In this document: positions 327-28,803 of the stretch, piece by piece
How the letters are laid out: each line of letters starts with the position of its first letter
How positions within the stretch are numbered: the stretch's first letter is position 1
NCBI GenBank assembly: GCA_022566715.1
Contig: JADFIH010000009.1
Location: 1 to 38,164, forward strand
From: Pseudomonadota bacterium
GTDB taxonomy: Bacteria; Pseudomonadota; Alphaproteobacteria; SHVP01
Direction: 5' to 3'
DNA length: 38,164 bases
The notes under the pieces: model-generated
Told to the model about the DNA's origin: nothing
Database searches by the model: none
Seen by the model: the letters and a program-made list of their open reading frames with translations, nothing else
Position numbers and translations under genes: made by a program

Positions 327-716
327 CTAGCCTTCAAGATAGGCCACGGCGTCGACCTCGACCGCGATGTCGGGGTGGAAGAAGCCGGCAACGGCGACCC
401 AGCCCGTGGCCGGCCGAATCCCGGAAAACACCTCCGCATGGGCGCGGCCCGCCTCGTCCCAACGGGTTATGTCGGTCAGGTACATGCGCGTCCGCGCGAC
501 ATCCTCGAAGGTCGCGCCGAGCTCCGCCAAGGCTTCGCCGATGATCGCCAGGGCGCATTTCGTCTGCCGATAGACGTCGCCGACGTAAAGGATTTTTCCC
601 TCGGGCCCCGAGGGCGAGGTCATGCTGACCTCCACCACGTTTCCCAGCCGCGTGGCCCGGCTGAAGCCCGCCTGGGCTTCCCAGGGGCGGCCGGTGAGTA
701 CGGATTTTCGTTGCAA
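327..716 (-). CDS. RidA/YjgF/UK114-family protein
   Basis: A 129-residue protein, the usual family length, with a TTG start at 716 chosen because GAGGAG stands six bases upstream. The C-terminal segment (RPATGWVAVAGFFHPDIAVE) aligns with the family signature around RPARxxVxV...VEIE. Archetypal RidA deaminates reactive enamines and imines and uses an Arg just after that RPA; here the position is Thr, so imine deaminase activity is doubtful and a divergent Rid subgroup is more likely. These subgroups often sit in catabolic operons for nitrogen compounds. It is transcribed away from the amino-acid-type ABC genes and toward the truncated creatininase-family gene. Confidence 0.85.
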   Translation of the reverse strand: MQRKSVLTGRPWEAQAGFSRATRLGNVVEVSMTSPSGPEGKILYVGDVYRQTKCALAIIGEALAELGATFEDVARTRMYLTDITRWDEAGRAHAEVFSGIRPATGWVAVAGFFHPDIAVEVDAVAYLEG

Positions 717-837: not shown

Positions 838-934
838 TGCGGCGCGGCCAATGAGTCCGGTTGGGATGGCCGCGTAGTCTGATGCGGCCTCGGACCGGTG
901 TCCGGGGCCTCACGGTTTGGGAGCGGGGGAGACA

Positions 935-1774
935 ATGACGGTCGCCGAGGTTGGACGTCCACGCGCGTCCCGCGCGCCGCTAAAGCTGCGCAAGCGGTCC
1001 CCCATCATTGATGTCCTGCAAGTCGCGGTGCTTGCGGCCGTTCTTATCTGGTTCACCCTCAAGGGCGCGGGCGCCATCAACTACAACTGGCAGTGGTACC
1101 GCGTCCCGGTCATGTTTTATCGGGTGGTCGACGGCGAGTTCATCCTGGGGCCCTTGATCGAAGGCCTTTTCATGACCCTCAAGATCTCCGGCGCGGCGTT
1201 GATACTCGCGCTCTTTATCGGCCTGGCGACAGCCTTGCTGCGGCGCTCCAATTCTTATTCGGGCCGGGCGCTGGCCTACGGATACCTGGAACTCATCCGC
1301 AACACGCCCCTCATCGTACAGATCTATTTGTTCTATTTCGTGCTGGCGCCGATCGTGGGGACGACGCCGTTTTGGACCGGGGTGATCGCGCTAGCGGTCT
1401 TCGAGGGCTCCTTTACGGCGGAGATATTCCGGGCGGGCATCGAATCGGTCAAAAAGGGCCAATGGGAAGCGAGCGACAGCCTGGGCCTTCCGCGCCACGA
1501 AACCTTTAGGCGCGTCGTGCTGCCACAGGCCCTACCGCTGATGCTGCCTCCGCTGACCGGGCAGATGGTTTCGCTCATCAAGCACTCGGCGATCCTGAGC
1601 GCCGTGGCCGTGTTTGATCTGACCACCGTGGGGCTCGACCTCATCGCCGACACGTTCATGGCCTTCGAGGTCTGGCTCAGCGTCGCCGGCGTGTATCTGG
1701 CCCTTACGATTACGCTTTCGGTCTCGGTAAGCCTATTCGAGAACCGCATACGCAAGCGGGCGCAACACTGGTGA
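935..1774 (+). CDS. Amino-acid-type ABC transporter permease 1 (HisM/GlnP family)
   Basis: A 279-residue inner-membrane permease for a polar-amino-acid-type importer. The ATG at 935 is preferred over the in-frame TTG at 917 because a purine-rich GGGGGAGA sits just before it. The protein has an N-terminal membrane segment (about residues 25-45), then the family core with several hydrophobic helices. The EAA loop EASDSLGLPRHETFRRVVLP, which docks on the ATPase, lies near residue 183. The protein is longer at the N-terminus than the shortest HisM homologues, like other two-permease systems. Its stop overlaps the next gene's GTG (GTGA), so translation is coupled and a heterodimer with permease 2 is likely. 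Confidence 0.93.
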   Translation: MTVAEVGRPRASRAPLKLRKRSPIIDVLQVAVLAAVLIWFTLKGAGAINYNWQWYRVPVMFYRVVDGEFILGPLIEGLFMTLKISGAALILALFIGLATALLRRSNSYSGRALAYGYLELIRNTPLIVQIYLFYFVLAPIVGTTPFWTGVIALAVFEGSFTAEIFRAGIESVKKGQWEASDSLGLPRHETFRRVVLPQALPLMLPPLTGQMVSLIKHSAILSAVAVFDLTTVGLDLIADTFMAFEVWLSVAGVYLALTITLSVSVSLFENRIRKRAQHW

Positions 1775-2685
1775 GCGATCGATCCGCGCCACCGCCGCCC
1801 CGGCCCCGCACGCTCAAGTTCGGCATCGTCGACGTCATCGTCATCGCCGCGGTGTTGGGCCTGTTCGCGTTCATCATCTATCGGGTCAACACGGTCCTCG
1901 TTTACAACTGGGACTTCGGCCGCATCATCCCGAACTACCTGTTCCGCTGGGATTCCGAGCGCGAACGCTGGGTGACCAATCTTCTCATCCAAGGGCTGAT
2001 CACGACAGTGCGGATTTCTATCTGGGGGATGCTGCTCGCGTCCATCATTGGGCTGATCATGGGTGTGTTCCGGGTGAGCAACGTCCTGTTCCTTCGGGTT
2101 CTTAGCCGCGGTTACGTCGAACTGATCCGCAACATCCCGCCCGTCGTCTTTCTCTTCGTCTTCTTTTTCTTCATCAGCAGCCAAATCCTGGGGCCCCTTG
2201 AACTGGCCGATCAGGCGCGCAACGCGCCCGCCGGCGTCCAAACGGTGATCCGATTCTTGTTCGGCGAGCTGCGGGTCTTGCCGAACTTCTTCGCCGCGCT
2301 GATCGCGCTGGCCCTATTCGAAGCGGCCTATATCACCGAACTCGTGCGCGCCGGCATCCAGTCCATCGAAAAGGGCCAATGGGAAGCGGCGCGCAGCGTC
2401 GGCCTCTCGCCATTTCACGTGATGCGGTACGTCATACTGCCGCAGGCCATCCAACGCATCACGCCGCCGCTCGCCAACCAATTCATCACGCTGATCAAGG
2501 ATTCGGCGTTGATCTCGCTGATTTCGGTCCAGGACCTGACCTTCATGGGCGTCGAGATATCGAACTCGACCCAGCGCCTGTTCGAGACCTGGATCACCGT
2601 CGCCGTCATGTATTTCGTGATCAGCTATAGCCTCGCACTGGCCTTCGGGCGGCTGGAAAAGCGCCTTAAGGCCGGATACCGATGA
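1771..2685 (+). CDS. Amino-acid-type ABC transporter permease 2
   Basis: A 304-residue permease with GTG start overlapping the previous stop. Hydrophobic segments begin around residues 18-38. The EAA loop EAARSVGLSPFHVMRYVILP is followed by the family TPPLANQFITLIKDSAL stretch. An acidic segment with the repeated word GQWEA just before the EAA loop is shared with permease 1, showing that the two are paralogues. A longer periplasmic loop (about 45 residues between the third and fourth hydrophobic segments) is peculiar to this subunit. With permease 1 it would form the heterodimeric channel, with the binding protein and ATPase supplied by the next two genes. Confidence 0.93.
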   Translation: MSDRSAPPPPRPRTLKFGIVDVIVIAAVLGLFAFIIYRVNTVLVYNWDFGRIIPNYLFRWDSERERWVTNLLIQGLITTVRISIWGMLLASIIGLIMGVFRVSNVLFLRVLSRGYVELIRNIPPVVFLFVFFFFISSQILGPLELADQARNAPAGVQTVIRFLFGELRVLPNFFAALIALALFEAAYITELVRAGIQSIEKGQWEAARSVGLSPFHVMRYVILPQAIQRITPPLANQFITLIKDSALISLISVQDLTFMGVEISNSTQRLFETWITVAVMYFVISYSLALAFGRLEKRLKAGYR

Positions 2686-2750
2686 AAACCGAACCAGGTT
2701 CCGCTGTGCAGGCGGCGAACCATTTATTCATGATGTGAATCACGGGGCCA

Positions 2751-2759
2751 TGATATAAG
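2751..2759 (+). promoter_or_regulatory. Possible extended -10 element before the binding-protein gene
   Basis: TGA-TATAAG in the 166-bp gap between permease 2 and the binding protein reads as an extended -10 (TGn plus hexamer). No good -35 is found at 16-18 bp. A separate promoter here would allow higher expression of the binding protein than of the permeases. Confidence 0.3.
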
Positions 2760-2851
2760 CACCATACGAAGAGCCATCAGCGTCATCGAGGCTCGCCGAT
2801 CTGGGCGGGCGCCGGCGGTGAAGATGGTCGTCGGAGCACAGGGAGGTACTA

Positions 2852-3709
2852 ATGGTAAAATTTGTTAAGTTTATTACGCGTCTGTTCCTGGTCGCCTTTG
2901 TTCTGGGCGCCTTTTCGGCGACGTCCTTTACGGTGACGGCCTACGCGCAAAACGTCTCCAAGCAACTCACGTCCGAAAGTGTTATCGAAAAGATTAAGAG
3001 GCGCGGAGTCGTGCGCGCCGGTGTCGCGACCTTCGTGCCGTGGGTGATGCGCTCGAAAGAGGGCGAGCTCATCGGATTCGAGATCGACGTCGCCAAGAAA
3101 GTCGCCGCCGACATGGGCGTGAAGATCGAGTTCATACCGACATCGTTCAGCGGCATTATTCCCGCGCTCATTGCCGGCGAGTTCGACATCATCATGACCG
3201 GCATCGCCATGAACTCGAAGCGCAACCTCACCATCAACTTCTCCAATCCCTACAACTGGGGCGGCATGGCCATGGTGGCCAGCAGGAAGTTGACCGAGGG
3301 CTGGGCGCCGGAGGATTTCAACAAGTCCAACGTCGTGTTCGTTAATCGCCGCGGTTCGTCGGACTCAGCAGAGACCGTGCAGAAGAATTGGCCGAAGGCG
3401 AAGTTGCGTCAGTTCGACGACGACGCCCAGGCCCTTCAGGACCTTCTGAACGGCAATGCCCATGCGTTCGTTACGGCGATGCCCAAGCCCTCGAACTTCG
3501 CGGTCCAGAATCCGGACGCACTGTGGCTGCCGATGGGCAAACAAATGCTGCTGCGCTGGCCTTCGTCCTTCGCGGTCCGCAAGGGCGATCCGGATATCTT
3601 GAATTTCCTCAACAACTGGATCACCCTTAATAAGGAACGTGGCTTCCTCGAGGCGCGGGCCGACTTCTGGTTCCGCAGCTTGGAGTGGGAAGCGCTCGTC
3701 GCCAAATAG
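2852..3709 (+). CDS. Periplasmic amino-acid-type substrate-binding protein
   Basis: A 285-residue secreted binding protein of the SBP_bac_3 family. GGAGGT stands six bases before the ATG. A Sec signal peptide ends in TAYA-QN with predicted cleavage after residue 32. The mature N-terminus has the family layout: RGVVRAGVATFVPWV, then GFEIDVAKKVAADMGVKIEF, then the ALIAGEFDIIMTGI segment that forms the ligand cleft. Ligands in this family are amino acids, opines and similar small amines; the specificity here is not evident. It follows the two permeases, and a hairpin separates it from the ATPase gene, which would favour excess binding protein over the other subunits. Confidence 0.93.
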   Translation: MVKFVKFITRLFLVAFVLGAFSATSFTVTAYAQNVSKQLTSESVIEKIKRRGVVRAGVATFVPWVMRSKEGELIGFEIDVAKKVAADMGVKIEFIPTSFSGIIPALIAGEFDIIMTGIAMNSKRNLTINFSNPYNWGGMAMVASRKLTEGWAPEDFNKSNVVFVNRRGSSDSAETVQKNWPKAKLRQFDDDAQALQDLLNGNAHAFVTAMPKPSNFAVQNPDALWLPMGKQMLLRWPSSFAVRKGDPDILNFLNNWITLNKERGFLEARADFWFRSLEWEALVAK

Positions 3710-3723
3710 GAGTCTCAACACCC

Positions 3724-3782
3724 TGACCGGCCGCGGAAGCTTCCGTGGCCGGTCAGCCTGAGTCCCGCCACTCTCATTTTTT
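3724..3782 (+). terminator. Intercistronic hairpin with T tract (partial terminator or mRNA stabiliser)
   Basis: A near-perfect 32-base inverted repeat centred on GGAAGCTTCC (3724-3755, one internal mismatch) starts 14 bases after the binding-protein stop. A six-T run (3777-3782) follows about 20 bases later. The T tract is too far from the stem for a classic intrinsic terminator, so read-through with 3'-end protection of the upstream message is more likely. Confidence 0.6.
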
Positions 3783-3816
3783 CGGCCCGCCGGGGCCTCA
3801 AGCAACCCGAAGCACC

Positions 3817-4572
3817 ATGCCGGACAGTTCCGAAAAACCGCTGATGATCGAGTTGCGCGGCGTCAACAAGTGGTTCGGCGACTTTCAAGCCCTGCGGTCC
3901 ATCGATCTCGAAGTCCGGCTCGGCGAGCGCGTCGTCGTGTGCGGCCCGTCCGGTTCGGGCAAGTCGACGATGATCCGGTGCATGAACCGGCTCGAACGGC
4001 ACGAGGAGGGAACGATCATCATCGACGGCATCGAGCTCACCGACGACATGAAGAACGTCACCGCCGTGCGCCGCGAAGTCGGAATGGTCTTCCAGCAGTT
4101 CAATCTTTTTCCCCACCTGACGGTTCTGGATAATCTCATGCTGGCGCCCCTGCGCTCGCGCAAGTTGCCGAAGAATGAAGCGCGGGAAATCGCCATGCAC
4201 TATTTGGAGCGCGTGCGTATTCCCGAGCAGGCGGAGAAATATCCGGGTCAGTTGTCCGGCGGCCAGCAGCAGCGCGTGGCCATCGCGCGAAGCCTGTGCA
4301 TGAAGCCGCGAATCATGTTGTTCGACGAGCCCACCTCGGCGCTCGACCCTGAGATGATCAAGGAAGTTCTCGACACGATGGTCGAACTGGCCGAGGACGG
4401 CATGACCATGGTGGTGGTAACCCACGAAATGGGCTTCGCCAAGACGGTGGCCGACTCCATGGTCTTCATGGACGAGGGCGAAATCGTCGAAGCCGCGACC
4501 CCGGCCGATTTTTTCAGCGCGCCGAAGAGCGAACGCACCAAGACCTTCCTCAGCCAGATTCTGATCCACTAG
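3817..4572 (+). CDS. Amino-acid-type ABC transporter ATP-binding protein
   Basis: A 251-residue ATPase of the GlnQ/HisP family. An in-frame GTG at 3745 lies inside the hairpin and would add unlike sequence, so the ATG at 3817 is preferred, though its Shine-Dalgarno is weak. Key motifs: Walker [11 protein letters not shown]-loop [17 protein letters not shown], signature [15 protein letters not shown], Walker [16 protein letters not shown] and the switch His in VVTHEM. The C-terminal [19 protein letters not shown] tail is typical of polar amino acid importers. It completes the transporter started at 935. Confidence 0.95.
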
Positions 4573-4582
4573 GAGCCCCGGC

Positions 4583-5965
4583 TTGAGTCCGGCCGACGGC
4601 ATGAAACCGCGGTTTGTCGCCGACCGGATCGGAGCATGGGTCGCCGACTTCCAACTATCCCAGGCATCGCCCCAGGTTATCGCGGCGGCGAAGCATTGCC
4701 TCATCGACGTTATCGGCGTCACCCTTGCCGGCAGCCGGCACCCGACCGCACAAATCGCGCGTTCCTACGCCGAGGCGCAGTACCGCGGCGGTCCCTGCTC
4801 CGTTCTCGGCGGCCAGCGGACTCTGGCCGCGCCGGGAGCCGCTTTTGCAAACGGCGTCGCCGCCCATGCCCTTGATTTCGACGACGTCTCGCACGAGGCA
4901 ATGGTCCACGGCTCGGCCGCGGTTTGGCCCGCCGTCGCCGCCGCAACCGAGGCGTCTGGCGCATCCGGGGAAGTCCTACTCACGGCCTTCATCGCCGGCG
5001 TCGAGGCCGAATACGCACTCGGCCGGGCCTTGACCCACGATCTTTTTTGGCGCGGTTGGTGGACCACCGGACTCCTCGGATCGATCGGCGCCGCCGCGGG
5101 CGCGGCGAAGGCCATGACGCTCGATCGCGCGGCCACGGCGAACGCCGTCGGTCTTGCCGCCTGCCAGGCAACCGGACCTTGGGTTGTGGTCGGAACACCG
5201 GCCAAGCCCCATGCTTGCGGGCGCGCAGCCGAGGGGGGACTTGAGGCGGCCCTGCTCGCCGCTTCCGGTCTGACGGCCCCGCCCGACGCGTTCGAAAACG
5301 AGAAGGGTTTCATAAAGATGTTCAGCAATGGCATCTTCGAGCCCGCCGAGCTCGATCGCCTCGGAGACCGCTACGTCCTCGAGACCTCGGGCGTGGCTTT
5401 CAAGCTTTTCCCCGTTTGCTCGGGCGCGCAGGCGGCAACGGAGGCTACGCTCGACATCCTGTCGGAGGAGTCGCTCTCGGGCGGCGACGTCAAGTCCGTC
5501 CATTGCGAGGTCACGCGCGACAGTTGGGAGTACCTCAAGTTTCCAGATCCGAAGACCGTTACTCAAGCGCAGTTCAGCATGCCCTTCGCCGTGGGATGTG
5601 CGCTCGCCTTCGGTAAACTCGGAGTGGCCCAGATCAGCGAAAAAACGTTGCACGATCCCCGGCTTCGCATCGCGATGAAGAAAGTGGCGATGGCACGGTC
5701 CGAGACATTGAACGCCTCGTCGGCTCAATATCCGGAGGCCGCGGCCGTCACGATCCAAACCAAGGACGGCCGTGAATTCCGAAAATTGAATGTGGTCTCA
5801 ACCGGGGGGCCCGGCAAACCCATGACCCAGGAGCAAGTGGACCGAAAATTCCATGCCTGCGCGGATGGAGTCCTAGCGCGCGCCGATGCCGAACGGGTTC
5901 TCGAGGGCATCAAACGGCTCGAAAGCCTAAAGCGTGCTGCCGCCCTGTTTGGGCCGCCAAATTAG
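4583..5965 (+). CDS. MmgE/PrpD-family protein
   Basis: A 460-residue protein of the family that includes 2-methylcitrate dehydratase PrpD, Bacillus MmgE, cis-aconitate decarboxylase and iminodisuccinate epimerase. Recognisable stretches are DVIGVTLAGSRHP, the conserved FANGVAAHALDFDDVS motif near residue 100, and KPHACGRAAEGGLEAALLA in the middle. The family is helical and cofactor-free, acting on tricarboxylates or amino-dicarboxylates. A TTG start at 4583 is preferred because AGGAG lies seven bases upstream; an ATG at 4601 is the alternative. It is 10 bp downstream of the ATPase gene, so it is probably cotranscribed with the importer and acts on the imported compound or a product of it. Confidence 0.9.
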   Translation: MSPADGMKPRFVADRIGAWVADFQLSQASPQVIAAAKHCLIDVIGVTLAGSRHPTAQIARSYAEAQYRGGPCSVLGGQRTLAAPGAAFANGVAAHALDFDDVSHEAMVHGSAAVWPAVAAATEASGASGEVLLTAFIAGVEAEYALGRALTHDLFWRGWWTTGLLGSIGAAAGAAKAMTLDRAATANAVGLAACQATGPWVVVGTPAKPHACGRAAEGGLEAALLAASGLTAPPDAFENEKGFIKMFSNGIFEPAELDRLGDRYVLETSGVAFKLFPVCSGAQAATEATLDILSEESLSGGDVKSVHCEVTRDSWEYLKFPDPKTVTQAQFSMPFAVGCALAFGKLGVAQISEKTLHDPRLRIAMKKVAMARSETLNASSAQYPEAAAVTIQTKDGREFRKLNVVSTGGPGKPMTQEQVDRKFHACADGVLARADAERVLEGIKRLESLKRAAALFGPPN

Positions 5966-5990: not shown

Positions 5991-7343
5991 CTAGCCCGGG
6001 ATATTCTCCATCAGGTCGGCCAGCCGTTCCGCGAAGTAGGCCTCGCGTTTCTCGATGGGGAGCTCCGACGAATCGAACGTGATCTTCGATATCCTTTCGC
6101 CCAGGCTGCGCATGAGCGCGCGGTCGTCGCCGCCATTCTCGGGAACGGTCACGACCGTGTCCACCGTATAGGTCGGAACGGTGCCCGCCGCGTTGCGGGG
6201 GTATGACGAATAGGGCTCGCCGTTGCCGACGGCGCGGATGTTCGTGCGAATCAGTTTGCGCATCATGGCGACGCCCCGGTCGCCCCGGTTGAAGTTCTCG
6301 AGGGCGTGGACCGCGATGGGACGTTGACTGACGATTGCTTCGTAGTCACCGGGAACCTGTTGGCGCTCGTGATAGGGCCGCTCGTCTTCCGTCTGACCGA
6401 TGAAATCGATCTTACCCAGGCCCACGTCCTCCTTGACCCCCTTGTGATCGGGATCGACCCGGTCGTTGAAATAACGCCAGCCGATCATCTGTGTGTGGGT
6501 GTCATCGATCGGCCGCATCCACCGGGTGAGCGCGGTTTGGATGAACGTCACGTCATCCTCCGCGGTCAGCCACATCGCGCCCGCCTGGTTGACGTTCGGC
6601 AGCATCATCTCGGTCGTGCGAACCCAGATACGGTCCTTCCAGCGGCGCACGTTGATGTTGACCATTCCGTACGGCGTCGGAACGTAGTCGAGCTCCGGAA
6701 GCTCGCCCCACGATTCGGCGAATTGAGTGCCGCTCACCCGCGTGTGCAGAAAACAACTATGGGTCGGGTCCTGTGTGTTATCGAGAACCTGAAGCCAGTT
6801 GCAGGCGAAATAGAGCGAGAAGGGAACAAAATCGGTGTCCGGCTGATCGTAGGAATCGAGGATGGCGAACGCCGGCACGTCGTCGGGCGGGCCCATGTAG
6901 GCAAAAATAATGCCCTTGTATTCGTGAGTCGGGTAGGCGCCGTGGCACAGCTTGTCCTTGATCTGGCTGTCGGGATCGTTCGGCGTCTCGAGGATCGTGC
7001 CGTCCACGGCATAGTGCCAGCCGTGATAGCAGCATTGTATGCCCTCATCGGTGGGCAGACCGTACTCGAGCGAGGCGCCCCGGTGACTGCAATGACGCGC
7101 GAGCAATCCGGGCTGACCTTTGCGCGTGCGGAACAGGACGAGATCCTCGCCCAACATGCGAATGGCCAGGGGAAGACCGTTGAGTTCCGAGGAGAGCGCG
7201 ACCGGTTGCCAGATGCGGCGCATGAACTCACCGCACGGCGTGGCCGGCCCGACGTGGGTCAGTTCGGCGTCTTCCGCCACGTTGTGGGAGCGTTCGTAAC
7301 CGGCGAAAGGGCGCCGGACCACCTTGACTTTTTCCTTGGACAT
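5991..7343 (-). CDS. Rieske non-heme iron oxygenase, alpha-subunit type
   Basis: A 450-residue oxygenase. The ATG at 7343 is chosen because GGAGGT precedes it by five bases; an in-frame GTG at 7361 lacks this. The Rieske [2Fe-2S] ligands are C85, H87, C104 and H107 (CSH...CCYHGW). The mononuclear iron site is in DNTQDPTHSCFLH, with D192, H195 and H200 visible and the last acidic ligand further on. The layout resembles the phthalate/vanillate oxygenase group, which work as homotrimers needing a separate reductase; none is encoded nearby. It is the last gene of the leftward run and has a 117-bp leader of its own. Substrate unknown: hydroxylation or N/O-demethylation are both possible. Confidence 0.93.
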   Translation of the reverse strand: MSKEKVKVVRRPFAGYERSHNVAEDAELTHVGPATPCGEFMRRIWQPVALSSELNGLPLAIRMLGEDLVLFRTRKGQPGLLARHCSHRGASLEYGLPTDEGIQCCYHGWHYAVDGTILETPNDPDSQIKDKLCHGAYPTHEYKGIIFAYMGPPDDVPAFAILDSYDQPDTDFVPFSLYFACNWLQVLDNTQDPTHSCFLHTRVSGTQFAESWGELPELDYVPTPYGMVNINVRRWKDRIWVRTTEMMLPNVNQAGAMWLTAEDDVTFIQTALTRWMRPIDDTHTQMIGWRYFNDRVDPDHKGVKEDVGLGKIDFIGQTEDERPYHERQQVPGDYEAIVSQRPIAVHALENFNRGDRGVAMMRKLIRTNIRAVGNGEPYSSYPRNAAGTVPTYTVDTVVTVPENGGDDRALMRSLGERISKITFDSSELPIEKREAYFAERLADLMENIPG

Positions 7344-7460
7344 CCTGACCTCCGCCACCACCGAACCACCCGAGGCGGCATCCTACCACAGGAGAAAAGT
7401 CAGGATAATCAATAAATTACGGGTTGGACTGCCCCGATTTAGGCACGAGCCCCTGGCGCC

Positions 7461-8447
7461 TCAATCAAGCAATATCTCTTTGCCGGCCTGCTTGGAGGAG
7501 GTGATCACGGCCTCCAGTATGGCGATGCCGTGGACCGCGTCCTCCAGGGACAGGGGGTAGGGCGCCTGCCCCGCGGCGGCGGCGGCGAACGCCTCGAGCT
7601 CGGCGCGCTCGATGTCGACGACCGGGAAGGTCTCGGTCTTCGGCGCCGCATCCGCCATGCTGACGTCGAGGATATGGTGATCCCGCATGTGGGCCCAGCC
7701 CTTGGTTCCGAAAACCTGGAGCCGCCATTGCCGTGACGTGGCGACCATGGTGCTGAGGTATGCCGAGGGTCCGCCCGCGAGCCGCATGAACACCGAAACC
7801 GTATCGTCCATGTCGATCTCGAGCGCGAGGCGTTGGCTGAAACAACGCACCGAGCGTGCTTTCCCGAGAAGGTGGATGAAACTATCGACGGTATGAATAC
7901 CGAGCGCCGTCATCGCGCCGGTCACGCCTTTTTCCTCAGTGCGCCAGTTGCCGGGTGGGTAGTGAAGCCCGAAGGAGCCCGAAAAGCTTCCCTCGATATG
8001 ATGAATTTGCCCCAACGCGCCGGTATCGATCATCGACTTCAGGGCCTTCATCGCCGGCAGAAAGCGCCGGTTGTGACCAAGCGCCACGACGAGTCCGGCC
8101 TGGACCGCGGCGTCCGCGGCCTCCTGCGCGCTCGCCTGTGTCATCGTGAACGGTTTCTCCACGAAAACGTGTTTGCCCGCGGCGATCGCGGCGCCGATCT
8201 GTTGCGCGTGCTGATCGTTGGGTGTCGCGAGTACGACCGCGTCGATGGCGGGATCGTCGAGGACCGACGCAAAGTCCGGGCTGAGCCTCAGACCCTGCGT
8301 CCGGGCATAGGGCGCCGCCTTATCGGGGCTGCGGGTCACACCGGCGACGAACCGAATGGCGTCACCCTTCGGCGTTCCCCCGGCTTGCACGGAATCGACC
8401 AGCCGTCTTCCCCAACGGCCCATTCCGACGAGCGCCGTGTTCAGCAT
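7461..8447 (-). CDS. Gfo/Idh/MocA-family NAD(P)-dependent dehydrogenase
   Basis: A 328-residue protein with an N-terminal Rossmann nucleotide site (LVGMGRWGRRL), the family TPNDQHAQQ segment and the VEKPFTMT motif whose Lys is catalytic. The C-terminal alpha/beta domain contains GIHTVDSFIHLLGKA, matching the H-x-x-D region used in substrate binding. Family members oxidise sugars, inositols or other secondary alcohols. The gene starts 17 bp after the creatininase-family gene, within the leftward catabolic run, so it probably oxidises an alcohol made by one of the oxygenases. That role is inferred from position only. Confidence 0.92.
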   Translation of the reverse strand: MLNTALVGMGRWGRRLVDSVQAGGTPKGDAIRFVAGVTRSPDKAAPYARTQGLRLSPDFASVLDDPAIDAVVLATPNDQHAQQIGAAIAAGKHVFVEKPFTMTQASAQEAADAAVQAGLVVALGHNRRFLPAMKALKSMIDTGALGQIHHIEGSFSGSFGLHYPPGNWRTEEKGVTGAMTALGIHTVDSFIHLLGKARSVRCFSQRLALEIDMDDTVSVFMRLAGGPSAYLSTMVATSRQWRLQVFGTKGWAHMRDHHILDVSMADAAPKTETFPVVDIERAELEAFAAAAAGQAPYPLSLEDAVHGIAILEAVITSSKQAGKEILLD

Positions 8448-8464
8448 GGTCCGCCCTTCGCTCC

Positions 8465-9241
8465 TCAGTCCTCGCCGAGAAAGGCTTGATAATCGGCGAA
8501 CGCATCCCCCACCGCGGCGCCGATCAATTTCCTGCCGGCTTCGGGCGTGGCCAGCGAGGGATCGGAGGCGATTCGGCCGTCGGGAAATTTTCGCCGGTGG
8601 TCGGCCGCGTCGAAGTGATTATCGCCGCCAAAGTCCCGGTAGAAGGTACCGGCGACGTGCCGTGGCTTTTCCATCGCCACATTTTTGATCGCGTCCGGAT
8701 ACACATGCTGTGTCATCGCGACCTCGCTCGGCGTCGCGTGGAACCCTTCCCACTCGCCGTAAAGATCGTGGCGAAGCTTGTTCGCGGTCTCGTACTCCCA
8801 CCAGCTTCGCAGGCGGCAGCGCACGCCGCCACGGTTTCCCAACCCGGCGGTCATGCCGCGGTCGGCATAGATATCCTGGAAGGCCGCCCGGATCGGGTTG
8901 ATGTTGCCGCCGTGCCCATTGAGAAAATAGAAGCGCTCAAACCCCTGGCCCGCCAGCGAGCGGACGTAGTCCTCGACCAGCGCCATGAGGGTCTTGGCCC
9001 GCATCGTCACCGTGCCGGGAAAGCCGAGATTGAATTGCGCCACGCCGAGTTCGATGGTCGGACCGACGAGAACACCGTGTTCCTCGCCCACACCGCGCGC
9101 AACGGCCTCGGCGCAGATCGCGTCCGTCCCGATCAATCCGTTCGGGCCGTGCTGCTCCGTCGAACCCGTCGGGATGATGATGCCCGTGGAGCGCTCGAGG
9201 TACGCTTCGATTTCCTTCCACGTGCTGAGCTGAAGCAACAT
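8465..9241 (-). CDS. Creatininase-family amidohydrolase
   Basis: A 258-residue protein. The start at 9241 gives the family's usual N-terminus (MLLQLSTWKEIEAYLERS); upstream in-frame starts at 9289 or 9385 would run into the preceding gene. The metal-site residues are E29 and H31 in TGSTEQHGPNG, D40 in LIGTDA, and H110 in FLNGHGGN. Creatininase itself has HYE where this has HGG, as in the formamidase and mycofactocin-peptidase branches, so creatinine is not a safe substrate guess. It is the second family member in the window (the other is at 1-168), and both flank the same putative catabolic locus. Confidence 0.92.
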   Translation of the reverse strand: MLLQLSTWKEIEAYLERSTGIIIPTGSTEQHGPNGLIGTDAICAEAVARGVGEEHGVLVGPTIELGVAQFNLGFPGTVTMRAKTLMALVEDYVRSLAGQGFERFYFLNGHGGNINPIRAAFQDIYADRGMTAGLGNRGGVRCRLRSWWEYETANKLRHDLYGEWEGFHATPSEVAMTQHVYPDAIKNVAMEKPRHVAGTFYRDFGGDNHFDAADHRRKFPDGRIASDPSLATPEAGRKLIGAAVGDAFADYQAFLGED

Positions 9242-9260
9242 TGTGCGAAACCCTAGGCCG

Positions 9261-10226
9261 TCATTGCCGGTAGGAAAAGGATTCGTCATAACGCGACAAG
9301 ATGTACTCGCCGCAGGTCGTCGGCTCGTATTTCGGCTCGCCGCCATCAACGGCCGGAATAATCGGCGTATCGAAGTTTGGATCAACGAACATGGCCATCG
9401 AATAACGCACCGCGCCGGAGCTATTCACGACGCGGTGCGGGTTGGAACGAAAACGGTCGTTGGACCAGCGCGCCAACAGATCGCCGACGTTCACCACCAG
9501 CGTTCCCTCGATGGGAAGCGCCATGACCCACTCGCCCTTGCCGGTCCGAACCTGGAGACCCCCCGTGGCGTCCTGGTGCAAAAGGGTCAGGCAGCCGTAG
9601 TCGGTGTGGGGCGCAACGCCGAACTGCCGCTCCCCCATGGCGGCGTCCTGCGGCGGATAATAGATGATGCTCGCGCGCGAAACGGTTTTGTCATAGCGCG
9701 CATCGAAGGTGTCCTCGGGCAGCCCTAATCCCGCGGCGCAGGCCCGTAAAATGTGCCGCCCGCAGTCCAAGCTTTCCGCGTAGAAGGCGTTGAGGACGGG
9801 CCGCAAGGCCGGCATGAAGTCCGGCCAATTGTTCGGGCCGATCATCGGGCTTCCGGCGAGGTAATCCGGGTCGTCCTCGCCAACGTCGAGGCCCCAAACG
9901 AAGCTCTCCTTGAGGTCGGCCTTTGCGGTCTCGTACATCTTGGCCTCCCCCACGCGGAGAAATCCGCGGTGCCGTTCGTTGATGCGCACCGTCATTTTCT
10001 CTTCGTGAGGATGGGCGAAGAACTCCTTCGAGGCCGCCATGGCGTCGGCGATGACTTGCGGCGGAAGGCCGTGATTGCGGACATAGAAGAAACCAACGCC
10101 CTGCGCCGCCGCCAAAATATCCTCGGCCACCTTGCCGCGGCCGCCGGACTCCCCTTCGACGAGGGGCGCAATGTCGATCACCGGGATCTCGGAGAGCGAG
10201 ATCTGTTTTGCCGTTGCGTAGGACAC
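9261..10226 (-). CDS. 2-oxoglutarate/Fe(II)-dependent oxygenase, isopenicillin-N-synthase-like
   Basis: A 321-residue protein with GTG start and GGGAGG upstream. The N-terminal half matches the DIOX_N domain (IPVIDIAPLVEG, then GFFYVRNHGLP). The C-terminal double-stranded beta helix carries the iron ligands H207, D209 (APHTDYG) and H264 (SNPHRVV), and the 2-oxoglutarate-binding R274 and S276 (RYSM). The substrate class is not predictable, as the family covers hydroxylation, desaturation and ring closure. It sits between the AhpD-like gene and the creatininase-family gene with short spacers (37 and 19 bp), clearly in one operon. Its pairing with the HD-domain oxygenase-like protein two genes upstream is discussed in the findings. 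Confidence 0.93.
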   Translation of the reverse strand: MSYATAKQISLSEIPVIDIAPLVEGESGGRGKVAEDILAAAQGVGFFYVRNHGLPPQVIADAMAASKEFFAHPHEEKMTVRINERHRGFLRVGEAKMYETAKADLKESFVWGLDVGEDDPDYLAGSPMIGPNNWPDFMPALRPVLNAFYAESLDCGRHILRACAAGLGLPEDTFDARYDKTVSRASIIYYPPQDAAMGERQFGVAPHTDYGCLTLLHQDATGGLQVRTGKGEWVMALPIEGTLVVNVGDLLARWSNDRFRSNPHRVVNSSGAVRYSMAMFVDPNFDTPIIPAVDGGEPKYEPTTCGEYILSRYDESFSYRQ

Positions 10227-10263
10227 GCCCGGCCCTCCCTAAGTCAGCCCGCCGGCCGGCGGA

Positions 10264-10836
10264 TCACGAATAGTACCCGATAACGTCGCCTTCGGTCGTG
10301 ACTCCAAGACCGTTCAGCAGGCGATTCGAATAATTAAAATAGGCGCAGACTTGGTTAACCTCCAGAATCTCACCATCGTCGCAACCGGCCTCGCGCAGAA
10401 CGGCGACGTCGCTTTCCTCCATGCCGCCAACGTTCAGCGTCAGTTTGTGCGCATAGCGCAGCAGCGCGAGTTCCCTGCCCTCGAACACGTCCTCCGGCCG
10501 GCCCGATTTCAGCGCTGCCTGGATGGCGTCGGCCCGGGCCTCGTCCTCGAGCAAGCGCCGGGCGTTGGTGAAGTGGTGGCTTAGACTGTAATCGCACTTG
10601 TTGGCAATACTCGTGTAGGAGGCGACCACCTCGAGAAACCAGACGGGCAGCGTATTCTCCGGGTGATGCAGAACGCTCCGGTAAAGGGCGAGGTGCCCCT
10701 CCATGGTGTGGGGCCGCAGGCTGTGCGCGCGCATGACGGCGTCCACGGTCCCGTTCGGCGCCCGCACCTTGTCGTACATTTCCTTGAGGGCGCCCGTCGC
10801 CCCCTCGTCCTCGATCATTTTTATCCAGGCGGACAT
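10264..10836 (-). CDS. Carboxymuconolactone decarboxylase/AhpD-like protein with CxxS motif
   Basis: A 190-residue all-helical AhpD-like protein of the peroxidase-related subgroup. AAGGAAG lies five bases before the ATG. The conserved helix contains E69, then C81-D-Y-S84 and H87/H88, where AhpD and its peroxidase-like relatives have CxxC followed by His. The second (resolving) cysteine is therefore replaced by serine, so a thiol-disulfide peroxidase cycle on this motif is unlikely unless another Cys substitutes (C134 and C147 are possible). It is second in the leftward operon, directly upstream of the 2-oxoglutarate oxygenase. A non-redox lyase or decarboxylase role is possible. Confidence 0.85.
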   Translation of the reverse strand: MSAWIKMIEDEGATGALKEMYDKVRAPNGTVDAVMRAHSLRPHTMEGHLALYRSVLHHPENTLPVWFLEVVASYTSIANKCDYSLSHHFTNARRLLEDEARADAIQAALKSGRPEDVFEGRELALLRYAHKLTLNVGGMEESDVAVLREAGCDDGEILEVNQVCAYFNYSNRLLNGLGVTTEGDVIGYYS

Positions 10837-10900
10837 GTCACGCTTCCTTTATTCCTTGCTTTCGAGCCCCATCGCCTCGGCGTCACCGCCAGGGAACGTG

Positions 10901-11539
10901 CTACTCCGGGTGACCAACGCCGCGCGGCGGGCGGGCGAATATTCTCTGAACCAACGGGACGAACTCTTCGATTTTCGCGTTCTCGTAGTCGGCTTGAATG
11001 GAGTTCTGGTCGTAGCGCTCGACGAACCGGGCGGTCCATTCGAAGTGCGCATGCCCGCGCCAACGCTCGCGTTCATCGTGGTCCAGGCCCGGCCAGCCCC
11101 GGCAATGGTGAACCTGAAAGATCGCATGGCGGCGCAGCATCCAATGGTTCCGCTCCGAGATATAGGCGCCCAAGAGGGCCGCCGCGAACTCGCCATGCAG
11201 GGTGGGACAGGCGACGAAGCCCACGTCGTGCAGTAACGCCACAACGACCGTCTCCTCGTCGAGGCCATCGCGCAACGCCATGGTCGCGGCTTGCAGGCAA
11301 TGCTCGTAGTTGTTGATCTGGTAGCCGAATGTCGCATCGTCCCGCGACGCCGTCAGCATCCGCAAGGCCTGCGCGGCCTGCTGCCCGGCGAAATAGGGCG
11401 TACGCTGCCGGTTCAGGGTCTCCCAGTCCTGGGCGCTGAAGTCGTCGAGACCGGGCGCTTCGATGTACTGCCAATCAGTCCCGCCCAGGGCGCTCCTGGT
11501 TCCCTTGGGCCGGTGAGAAATAGCGTCTAACTCGTTCAT
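10901..11539 (-). CDS. HD-domain protein with PhnZ-like residues (putative di-iron oxygenase)
   Basis: A 212-residue protein. The frame stays open to 11731, but similarity and composition favour the ATG at 11539. The HD-superfamily metal ligands are all present: H80, H104-D105, H115, H138 and D177. The segment GYQINNYEHCLQAA around H80 resembles the corresponding stretch of PhnZ, the mixed-valence di-iron oxygenase that cleaves a hydroxylated phosphonate, more than it does phosphodiesterase HD proteins (my recollection of that family). The Tyr and Glu that PhnZ places before this segment are not conserved, so the substrate would differ. As the first gene of the leftward operon it probably sets the pathway together with the 2-oxoglutarate oxygenase. 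Confidence 0.75.
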   Translation of the reverse strand: MNELDAISHRPKGTRSALGGTDWQYIEAPGLDDFSAQDWETLNRQRTPYFAGQQAAQALRMLTASRDDATFGYQINNYEHCLQAATMALRDGLDEETVVVALLHDVGFVACPTLHGEFAAALLGAYISERNHWMLRRHAIFQVHHCRGWPGLDHDERERWRGHAHFEWTARFVERYDQNSIQADYENAKIEEFVPLVQRIFARPPRGVGHPE

Positions 11540-27798: not shown

Positions 27799-28803
27799 AT
27801 GACCCGCACAATTGGCTACTCCGAAATCGACTTCGAGAAACAGGGAAAGCAGATCGGCTTTATGCATCTGCCACATTCGAGCCACGACGACGCCTGGGGC
27901 GGATTGCGTGTTCCCCTGACGGTGATCAACAATGGCGCGGGGCCCACGGTCTTTCTACAGGGCGGCAATCACGGCGACGAATATGAGGGCCCCATCGTCC
28001 TGGGGGAGATCATCCGCGGCCTCGACCCGGCGCGCCTTACGGGGCGTCTTATCATCATGCCGGCCATCAATCTGCCCGCCGTGGAGGCCGGCTCGCGCGT
28101 TTCCCCAATCGACGGGCTGAACTTCAACCGCACCTTTCCCGGCGATCCTCTGGGCTCCATCACCCAGCAACTGTCGGCCTATGTATCCGAAATCCTGTTT
28201 CCCCTGGCCGACGCGTTCATCGACCTGCATTCGGGCGGATCGTCCCTGTCCATTATTCCCAGCGCGATCGTGGAGCCGTCGCGGGACGCCGAACTCAGCC
28301 GCAAAAACCGCGACGCGGTGTTTGCCTTCAACGCGCCCATGAACGTGGTGATCGGTAATTTCGGTGATCCCCGGACCTCGACCGCCGCCGCGGTCCATGC
28401 CGGACTTATCACCGTGGGAGCGGAAATGGCCGGCACCGGAACCGTGACCCCCAAGGCCGTCGTCCTCTGCCGCGATGGGGTGCATAACGTGCTGCATCAC
28501 CTCGGCGTCCTCGAGCGCACCGGCAAGCCGCCAACCGCGCCGGACCGGCCGGTGCTCCATGACATCAGCGGACCGCACGCCCATGTCATGGCGACCCAGA
28601 CCGGCGTGTTCGAACCGCATCACGCGCTTGGCGACTCGGTGCGCGCCGGGCAACCGGCGGGGCGCATCCATTTCCTGAGCGATCCCGCGCGGCCGCCCGA
28701 GGAACTGGTCTACGGCGCCGACGGCGTCCTTTACGGGCTGCGGCAGCCAGGCCGCGTCCGGCCCGGCAATTGCTGCGCTGTCGTTGCGTCCATTTGCACC
28801 TAG
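27799..28803 (+). CDS. Succinylglutamate desuccinylase/aspartoacylase-family deacylase
   Basis: A 334-residue zinc-dependent hydrolase; AAGGA precedes the ATG. The family metal site is GGNHGDEYEGPIV, giving the His and Glu ligands, with a second His in FIDLHSGGSS. The RTFPGDP segment (FNRTFPGDPLGS) and the C-terminal beta domain (about residues 255-330, GVFEPHHALGDSVRAGQPAG) are typical. Members remove acyl groups from amino acids, such as N-acetyl-diaminobutyrate in the DoeB branch, which has a similar length. No other ectoine-degradation gene is nearby, so that substrate is not claimed. It is divergent from the dehydrogenase gene (183-bp spacer) and 24 bp upstream of the lactonase-like gene. 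Confidence 0.88.
   Translation: MTRTIGYSEIDFEKQGKQIGFMHLPHSSHDDAWGGLRVPLTVINNGAGPTVFLQGGNHGDEYEGPIVLGEIIRGLDPARLTGRLIIMPAINLPAVEAGSRVSPIDGLNFNRTFPGDPLGSITQQLSAYVSEILFPLADAFIDLHSGGSSLSIIPSAIVEPSRDAELSRKNRDAVFAFNAPMNVVIGNFGDPRTSTAAAVHAGLITVGAEMAGTGTVTPKAVVLCRDGVHNVLHHLGVLERTGKPPTAPDRPVLHDISGPHAHVMATQTGVFEPHHALGDSVRAGQPAGRIHFLSDPARPPEELVYGADGVLYGLRQPGRVRPGNCCAVVASICT

Follow-up and report, generated by a model that had tools for sequence, protein, structure and literature searches.

Modular exchange of two candidate oxygenases, an IPNS-type 2-oxoglutarate enzyme and an HD-domain protein, in a putative alphaproteobacterial catabolic operon

Six minus-strand genes at positions 5991-11539 of a 38,164-nucleotide stretch of contig JADFIH010000009.1 (the window), from the draft genome of an alphaproteobacterium (3.0 Mb, 90% complete), encode an HD-domain protein, a protein of the AhpD/carboxymuconolactone decarboxylase (CMD) type, an Fe(II)/2-oxoglutarate (2OG) oxygenase, a creatininase-family enzyme, a Gfo/Idh/MocA-family dehydrogenase and a Rieske oxygenase. 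We propose, at about even confidence, that the operon serves the catabolism of a heteroaromatic carboxylate, N-methylated or N-blocked in some other way, that would be imported, hydroxylated and then cleaved, the last step by the HD protein. Part of the operon recurs in other genomes as a module in which the 2OG and HD genes are each replaced, separately, by a gene of another family. The pairing of an IPNS-type 2OG enzyme with an HD protein is partly supported as a new and modular variant on the known two-step logic of an Fe/2OG enzyme followed by an HD oxygenase.

Module genes were sought in 385 genomes of the class and in a genome collection, and 30 CMD-bearing loci, including Roseobacter-group plasmids with their deposited annotation, were compared. 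The HD gene was present at 13 of the 30 loci and a gene for an orphan protein, designated u362, at 10, and the two were never found together (p = 0.001). Likewise, 18 loci carried the 2OG gene and eight carried Rieske2, a gene that differs from the Rieske gene of the window, again with none that had both (p = 8e-5). The combinations observed were HD with 2OG (11 loci), HD with Rieske2 (2), u362 with 2OG (3) and u362 with Rieske2 (6), around a constant core of an importer, the AhpD-like protein and usually an amidohydrolase. Versions that lacked HD or 2OG came from loci located via the 2OG and CMD genes, and in the sample found through CMD only, exclusivity was retained for HD and u362 (p = 0.008) and for 2OG and Rieske2 (p = 0.001). 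At the level of whole genomes, eight of the 19 CMD genomes carried the module HD gene, eight carried u362 and none carried both (two-sided p = 0.003, or p = 0.013 without one weak u362 copy, 33%). The u362 gene itself was found in nine of the 385 genomes, eight of which carry CMD (p = 6e-11).

The simplest reading of these swaps is that two fixed steps are each performed by one of two alternative enzymes. The first step would be a hydroxylation, because both 2OG and Rieske2 belong to hydroxylase families, and the second, by HD or u362, would be an oxidative cleavage by analogy with PhnZ, TmpB and MIOX. Replacement of the first oxygenase by a Rieske enzyme and of the second by an orphan protein is as expected of a hydroxylate-then-cleave pair, and the swap pattern supports this scheme with exchangeable enzymes. 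The hydroxylate-then-cleave logic suggested in the initial annotation was thus strengthened by the separate swapping, but the pairing is not strict, since 2OG occurred without HD and HD occurred with Rieske2. A strict HD-2OG partnership was therefore ruled out in favor of a modular pair. A further exclusion, between the creatininase-family gene and a DoeB/AspA-like gene as alternative amidohydrolases, was unsupported (p = 0.6, with one locus that carried both).

The u362 protein is approximately 362 aa long and contains invariant His/Cys/Glu motifs (HSWHAGIHPGC, HFHTCG and PGE), and no relative was identified in Pfam, NCBIfam or the PDB. It is encoded at L172:11108-12226 (+) and also at L163, L165, L176, L179, L193-L196 and L244. 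Copies of Rieske2 were 54-63% identical to the L092 copy. On Ruegeria plasmids, one of them coral-derived (L244:8814-9617, L196:2781-3569), a gene for a 2OG enzyme of the phytanoyl-CoA type adjoins Rieske2 and sarcosine-oxidase-like genes, and a gene similar to corrinoid-type trimethylamine methyltransferases lies nearby.

Homologues of HD, CMD and 2OG were co-located in many genomes, and this co-location is more than chance. The module HD gene adjoined seven of the ten best 2OG matches, the window's own excluded. 2OG homologues with at least 50% identity occurred in 11 genomes, all among the 19 CMD genomes of the 385 (p = 1e-16), and the module HD gene occurred in eight genomes, also all among the 19 (p = 7e-12). 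The co-occurrence of HD and 2OG in other genomes that had been anticipated was found, with an IPNS-type 2OG gene at 11 of the 13 loci that carry both HD and CMD. Module-type HD genes were identified in alphaproteobacteria, SAR324, SAR86 and gamma- and betaproteobacteria, and their recurring neighbors were the CMD-like protein, the 2OG enzyme, an ATP-binding cassette (ABC) importer, the creatininase family and RidA. Homologues of the window's Rieske gene were present at only three related loci (G165, G233 and G130, all with HD and 2OG), and the Gfo/Idh/MocA gene was found at none of the related loci, so the six genes are not the conserved unit. A second, separate HD-2OG pairing was observed in the window organism's own family, where an IPNS-type 2OG gene (34% identity to that of the window) and an HpcH/HpaI aldolase gene are followed immediately by a divergent HD gene (L073:7788-10204 and L081).

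The HD protein (212 aa; 10901-11539, minus strand) is a predicted di-iron, C-X-cleaving oxygenase of the PhnZ/TmpB fold. The complete ligand set (H80, H104-D105, H115, H138 and D177) was confirmed in the window protein, all six ligands were invariant in 24 homologues, and the segment GYQINNYEHCLQAA aligned with GEAINQLEHSLQCA of PhnZ. The protein matched the NCBIfam TmpB (1.4e-8) and Phn-HD (1.6e-7) models at scores below their equivalog cut-offs (34.7 vs 300 bits and 31 vs 214.6 bits, respectively). The general Pfam HD model gave no match to it at E 0.001, and a PF01966 search of the window genome did not list the HD locus. When a profile of the 24 sequences was compared with the PDB, PhnZ (3e-12) and TmpB (7.5e-12) were followed by a gap to E ~0.1-0.5, with MIOX among the next matches (E 0.5). 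An AlphaFold2 model (mean pLDDT 84) retrieved only PhnZ/TmpB structures at Foldseek ranks 1-10 (E 6e-5 to 5e-4; TM-score by target 0.58-0.67), followed by HD-GYP (E 0.06) and MIOX (E 0.4). By profile and modeled fold the protein grouped with PhnZ, TmpB and MIOX and not with phosphohydrolases, in line with the initial annotation.

The residues associated with substrate gating differ from those of PhnZ, in agreement with the initial annotation. The YxxE loop of PhnZ/TmpB is missing and the window protein has FGYQ in its place, and the position of PhnZ K108, which we take to be the phosphonate-contact lysine, is occupied in the module by an invariant Gln (Q142), with no lysine. In a phylogenetic tree, 56 module and family-B sequences, including that of the window, were split from 30 TmpB/PhnZ-like sequences with 100/100 support. 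The HD protein is thus neither PhnZ nor TmpB but a member of a separate clade. Since the ligand set alone is insufficient to tell HD oxygenases from hydrolases (PMC8177086), the oxygenase assignment is drawn from fold and context. Relatives of the HD protein outside the module, family B included, directly adjoin sarcosine-oxidase-like genes at L059, L061, L062 and L065, where the other module genes are absent.

The predicted step-one hydroxylase is a 321-aa Fe(II)/2OG oxygenase of the IPNS/EFE type (9261-10226, minus strand). It contains DIOX_N (4e-29) and 2OG-FeII_Oxy (1e-24) domains, and not PhyH, which bore out the earlier assignment; its HxD...H triad is H207/D209/H264, and its best PDB relative was 9ovh (6e-63). 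The best conserved gene of the module encodes the AhpD/CMD-like "peroxidase-related" protein (190 aa; 10264-10836, minus strand), which scored above the TIGR01926 cut-off. The second Cys of its CxxC motif is replaced by Ser in all 20 module homologues (NRCVYC in AhpD vs NKCDYS in the module protein), and a role as an AhpD-type peroxidase was ruled out because this second active Cys is Ser. Public records of its TIGR01926 relatives still carry the name peroxidase-related enzyme despite the CxxS motif.

Neighboring genes provided clues to the substrate. Sarcosine-oxidase-like genes (SoxA) adjoin the module at many loci, and in a tree of 47 SoxA-like proteins 10 of the 11 module copies formed one clade with 100/100 support, the copy at G293 falling outside it. 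This clade spans alpha- and gammaproteobacteria and Roseobacter-group plasmids, and the further SoxA copies that these genomes carry fall outside it. The reference clades for Sox and for N-methylglutamate dehydrogenase (Mgd) were not separable from each other with certainty, gene neighbors (Rhodobacteraceae) included. An N-methyl amino acid is a probable intermediate, because a dedicated SoxA-like clade accompanies the module. Sarcosine-oxidase-type genes, with alpha and gamma subunits annotated, were also noted on Klebsiella pneumoniae urine plasmids (CP110578.1, NZ_LR890211.1).

Five loci, from different families, have a complete or near-complete histidine utilization (hut) cluster beside the module (G165, a gammaproteobacterium, G293, G220 and Leisingera sp. 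M658, in which a ugp operon lies between module and hut cluster), compared with approximately 0.2 expected at random (P ~3e-6, relatedness ignored). The hut enzymes there are ordinary, with HutU and HutH above their cut-offs, and hut is absent from the window. In ordinary family-3 solute-binding proteins an Arg holds the carboxylate and an Asp holds the alpha-ammonium group of the ligand. Alignments of both module binding-protein families indicated that the Arg is kept and the Asp is lost. The closest solved relative of the window's binding protein (2852-3709, plus strand; PF00497 5e-29) was 9e2b (279 bits). The SoxA clade, the hut clusters and the loss of the Asp together point to an N-methylated, probably betaine-like carboxylate, such as a hercynine- or homarine-like heteroaromatic. 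Among candidates, we would rank a hercynine-type N-methylated histidine first because of the hut clusters and homarine-type N-methylated pyridine carboxylates second, as Mgd is reported to have a part in homarine catabolism (PMC13390433, which cites another paper for this), ahead of other compounds. A literature search on hercynine or methylhistidine catabolism yielded nothing usable. The nitrogenous, non-phosphonate substrate envisaged previously is therefore favored by the sarcosine-oxidase-like and hut neighbors, with the identity of the compound limited to candidates. Given the presence of module members in marine alphaproteobacteria, SAR324, SAR86 and Roseobacter-group plasmids, the substrate is likely a common dissolved nitrogen compound.

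In the proposed pathway, the ABC importer would take up the carboxylate, which the IPNS-type 2OG enzyme, or Rieske2 in other genomes, would hydroxylate. The HD di-iron oxygenase, or u362 elsewhere, would then oxidatively break a bond, C-C or C-N, of the carbon that carries the new hydroxyl. RidA and the creatininase-family amidohydrolase may handle the imine, formyl/acid or amide products, and the AhpD-like protein may join this processing in a non-peroxidase role. Where present, the dedicated sarcosine-oxidase-like enzyme would strip the N-methyl group, and the remainder would enter hut or glutamate and central metabolism. A fuller claim, advanced tentatively, is that the module represents a new aerobic route for N-methylated heteroaromatic carboxylates, that its HD oxygenase cuts a C-C or C-N bond, and that both steps have been solved twice by unrelated, freely recombining enzymes; we think it somewhat less likely than not to hold.

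Several observations weigh against this proposal. When the five Roseobacter-group plasmids were taken as one, the exclusivity values rose to p = 0.046 and 0.071, and some of the swap loci had been located via HD itself. The 2OG gene was present without HD or u362 at G298 and G375, and HD was present without the rest of the module at L097/L098. Dinuclear HD sites with six ligands also occur in hydrolases, for example YqeK (PMC8177086), and the module proteins are known from sequence and a predicted model alone. The link to hut is limited to five of the 30 loci. In the window genome hutU lies on another contig, and the dedicated SoxA clade has no member there, the only full-length SoxA of that genome falling outside the clade.

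These points were weighed along with four other explanations. One retains the same enzymology and assigns it to a pyridine betaine such as homarine (N-methylpicolinate), for which hydroxylation, ring opening and amide hydrolysis would give N-methylglutamate, demethylated to glutamate by an Mgd-type enzyme, with hut being secondary. This is a possible but rather unlikely account. The binding proteins without the alpha-ammonium Asp would fit such a substrate, as would the reported part of Mgd in homarine catabolism (PMC13390433, citing another paper); the amidohydrolase, a glutathione S-transferase (weak maiA match) and the orphan protein would suit a ring-opening logic, and marine Ruegeria, Leisingera and Paracoccus carry the module on plasmids. 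However, the five hut clusters would be left unexplained, and the SoxA copies of the module form a clade of their own, distinct from the further SoxA clades in those genomes. It is unlikely that the 2OG and HD enzymes instead serve different compounds or different branches of the same regulon. Each was seen without the other at some loci, and a 2OG paralogue (40-49% identity) is common without HD, yet their separate replacement, with every one of the four combinations seen beside the same core, is what two fixed steps would be expected to produce, and at L073 and L081, from two genomes related to that of the window, a second, divergent HD gene lies next to an IPNS-type 2OG gene.

A phosphohydrolase or other hydrolase with a housekeeping or regulatory function, placed beside an oxygenase incidentally, is an explanation to which we give quite a low probability for the HD protein. 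Family-B relatives are widespread beside unrelated genes in many genomes, and some records label such genes phosphohydrolase. Against this stand the absence of a Pfam HD match at E 0.001, the match to PhnZ/TmpB as nearest solved structures, well ahead of HD-GYP and nucleotidase folds, and a module clade that is tied to CMD genomes (eight of eight) and alternates with u362. A hydrolase was set aside on profile, fold and context and is retained as a rival. The fold and ligand set would also suit a variant phosphonate pathway in which the HD protein cuts a C-P bond as PhnZ and TmpB do, but this is highly improbable: the YxxE gate is absent, an invariant Gln replaces the lysine at the K108 position, none of the annotated module loci carries a recognized phosphonate gene, and the neighbors are an amino-acid importer, Sox and hut. 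Phosphonate catabolism was ruled out as the principal interpretation on the gating residues and neighbors. Import, hydroxylation and HD-dependent cleavage of an N-methylated or N-blocked heteroaromatic carboxylate remains the interpretation that we prefer.

The layout of the window agreed with the earlier description, in that a leftward run of six genes with three unrelated iron oxygenase types was found on the minus strand next to an amino-acid-type importer. The intergenic gaps measure 64, 37, ~19, 17 and 99 bp, and all six genes have a third-position GC of 0.79-0.81; these short gaps and uniform composition make the run a single transcription unit in layout. The creatininase-family metal amidohydrolase (258 aa; 8465-9241, minus strand; PF02633 2e-62) retains intact catalytic motifs (TEQHG and NGHGGN), with 3no4 as its closest solved structure (266 bits). 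It did not reach the creatininase (EC 3.5.2.10) equivalog cut-off (99 vs 235 bits), which indicates family membership only. Its start was placed at the earliest ATG compatible with the family (~9241), the mechanical open reading frame beginning at 9385. The Gfo/Idh/MocA-family dehydrogenase (328 aa; 7461-8447, minus strand) matched PF01408/PF22725. The phthalate-4,5-dioxygenase/VanA-like Rieske oxygenase (456 aa; 5991-7361, minus strand; PF00355 5e-16) has an intact [2Fe-2S] motif (CxH...CxxH) and mononuclear iron motif (DxxHxxxxH).

An MmgE/PrpD-family gene (4583-5965, plus strand; PF03972 2e-60, PF19305 7e-32), with a 30% identical homologue at L054, sits between the operon and the importer (917-4572, plus strand). 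In addition to the binding protein, the importer comprises permease 1 (917-1774) and permease 2 (1771-2685), both with homologues at module loci, and an amino-acid-type ATPase (3745-4572) whose homologues at module loci are 62-81% identical. A RidA-family protein similar to enamine/imine deaminases (327-716, minus strand; PF01042 1e-19) has 54-56% identical homologues at other module loci. A stretch similar to N-acyl-diaminobutanoate deacetylase (DoeB/AspA) lies 16 kb off the operon (27802-28770, plus strand) and is 38% identical to a gene at module loci L092, L179 and L195.

Three HD-domain oxygenases, MIOX, PhnZ and TmpB, were described in a 2020 review (PMC8177086). Other HD oxygenases are not recognizable from sequence, and a family that comes with genomic context, a hydroxylase partner and natural replacements is directly testable. 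If the proposal is true, the reactions of HD oxygenases would extend beyond phosphonates and inositol. That both oxygenases have been exchanged, in every combination, offers a useful natural experiment in non-orthologous replacement and a clue to the function of the orphan u362.

The systems that most resemble the module are PhnY-PhnZ and TmpA-TmpB, in which an Fe/2OG hydroxylase is likewise followed by an HD di-iron oxygenase (PMC8177086). The HD fold and six iron ligands are shared with PhnZ/TmpB, whereas the module HD protein lacks the YxxE loop and phosphonate lysine and forms a separate clade on a very long stem. Its 2OG partner is of the IPNS type while theirs are PhyH, and the module has N-methyl amino-acid and histidine neighbors and oxygenases that are each exchangeable. 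MIOX is an HD di-iron oxygenase that cleaves a C-C bond outside phosphonate metabolism, similar to the role proposed here, but is remote from the module protein (PDB profile E 0.5, Foldseek E 0.4). Homarine catabolism with N-methylglutamate dehydrogenase, as cited in PMC13390433, has in common with the module a sarcosine-oxidase-like N-demethylase, a betaine-type carboxylate and marine Roseobacter-group hosts, although the module SoxA forms its own clade. The hut pathway adjoins the module in five genomes, yet does not include the oxygenases, the AhpD-like protein or the amidohydrolase. AhpD alkylhydroperoxidase/carboxymuconolactone decarboxylase is the fold family of the most conserved module protein, which differs by its CxxS motif.

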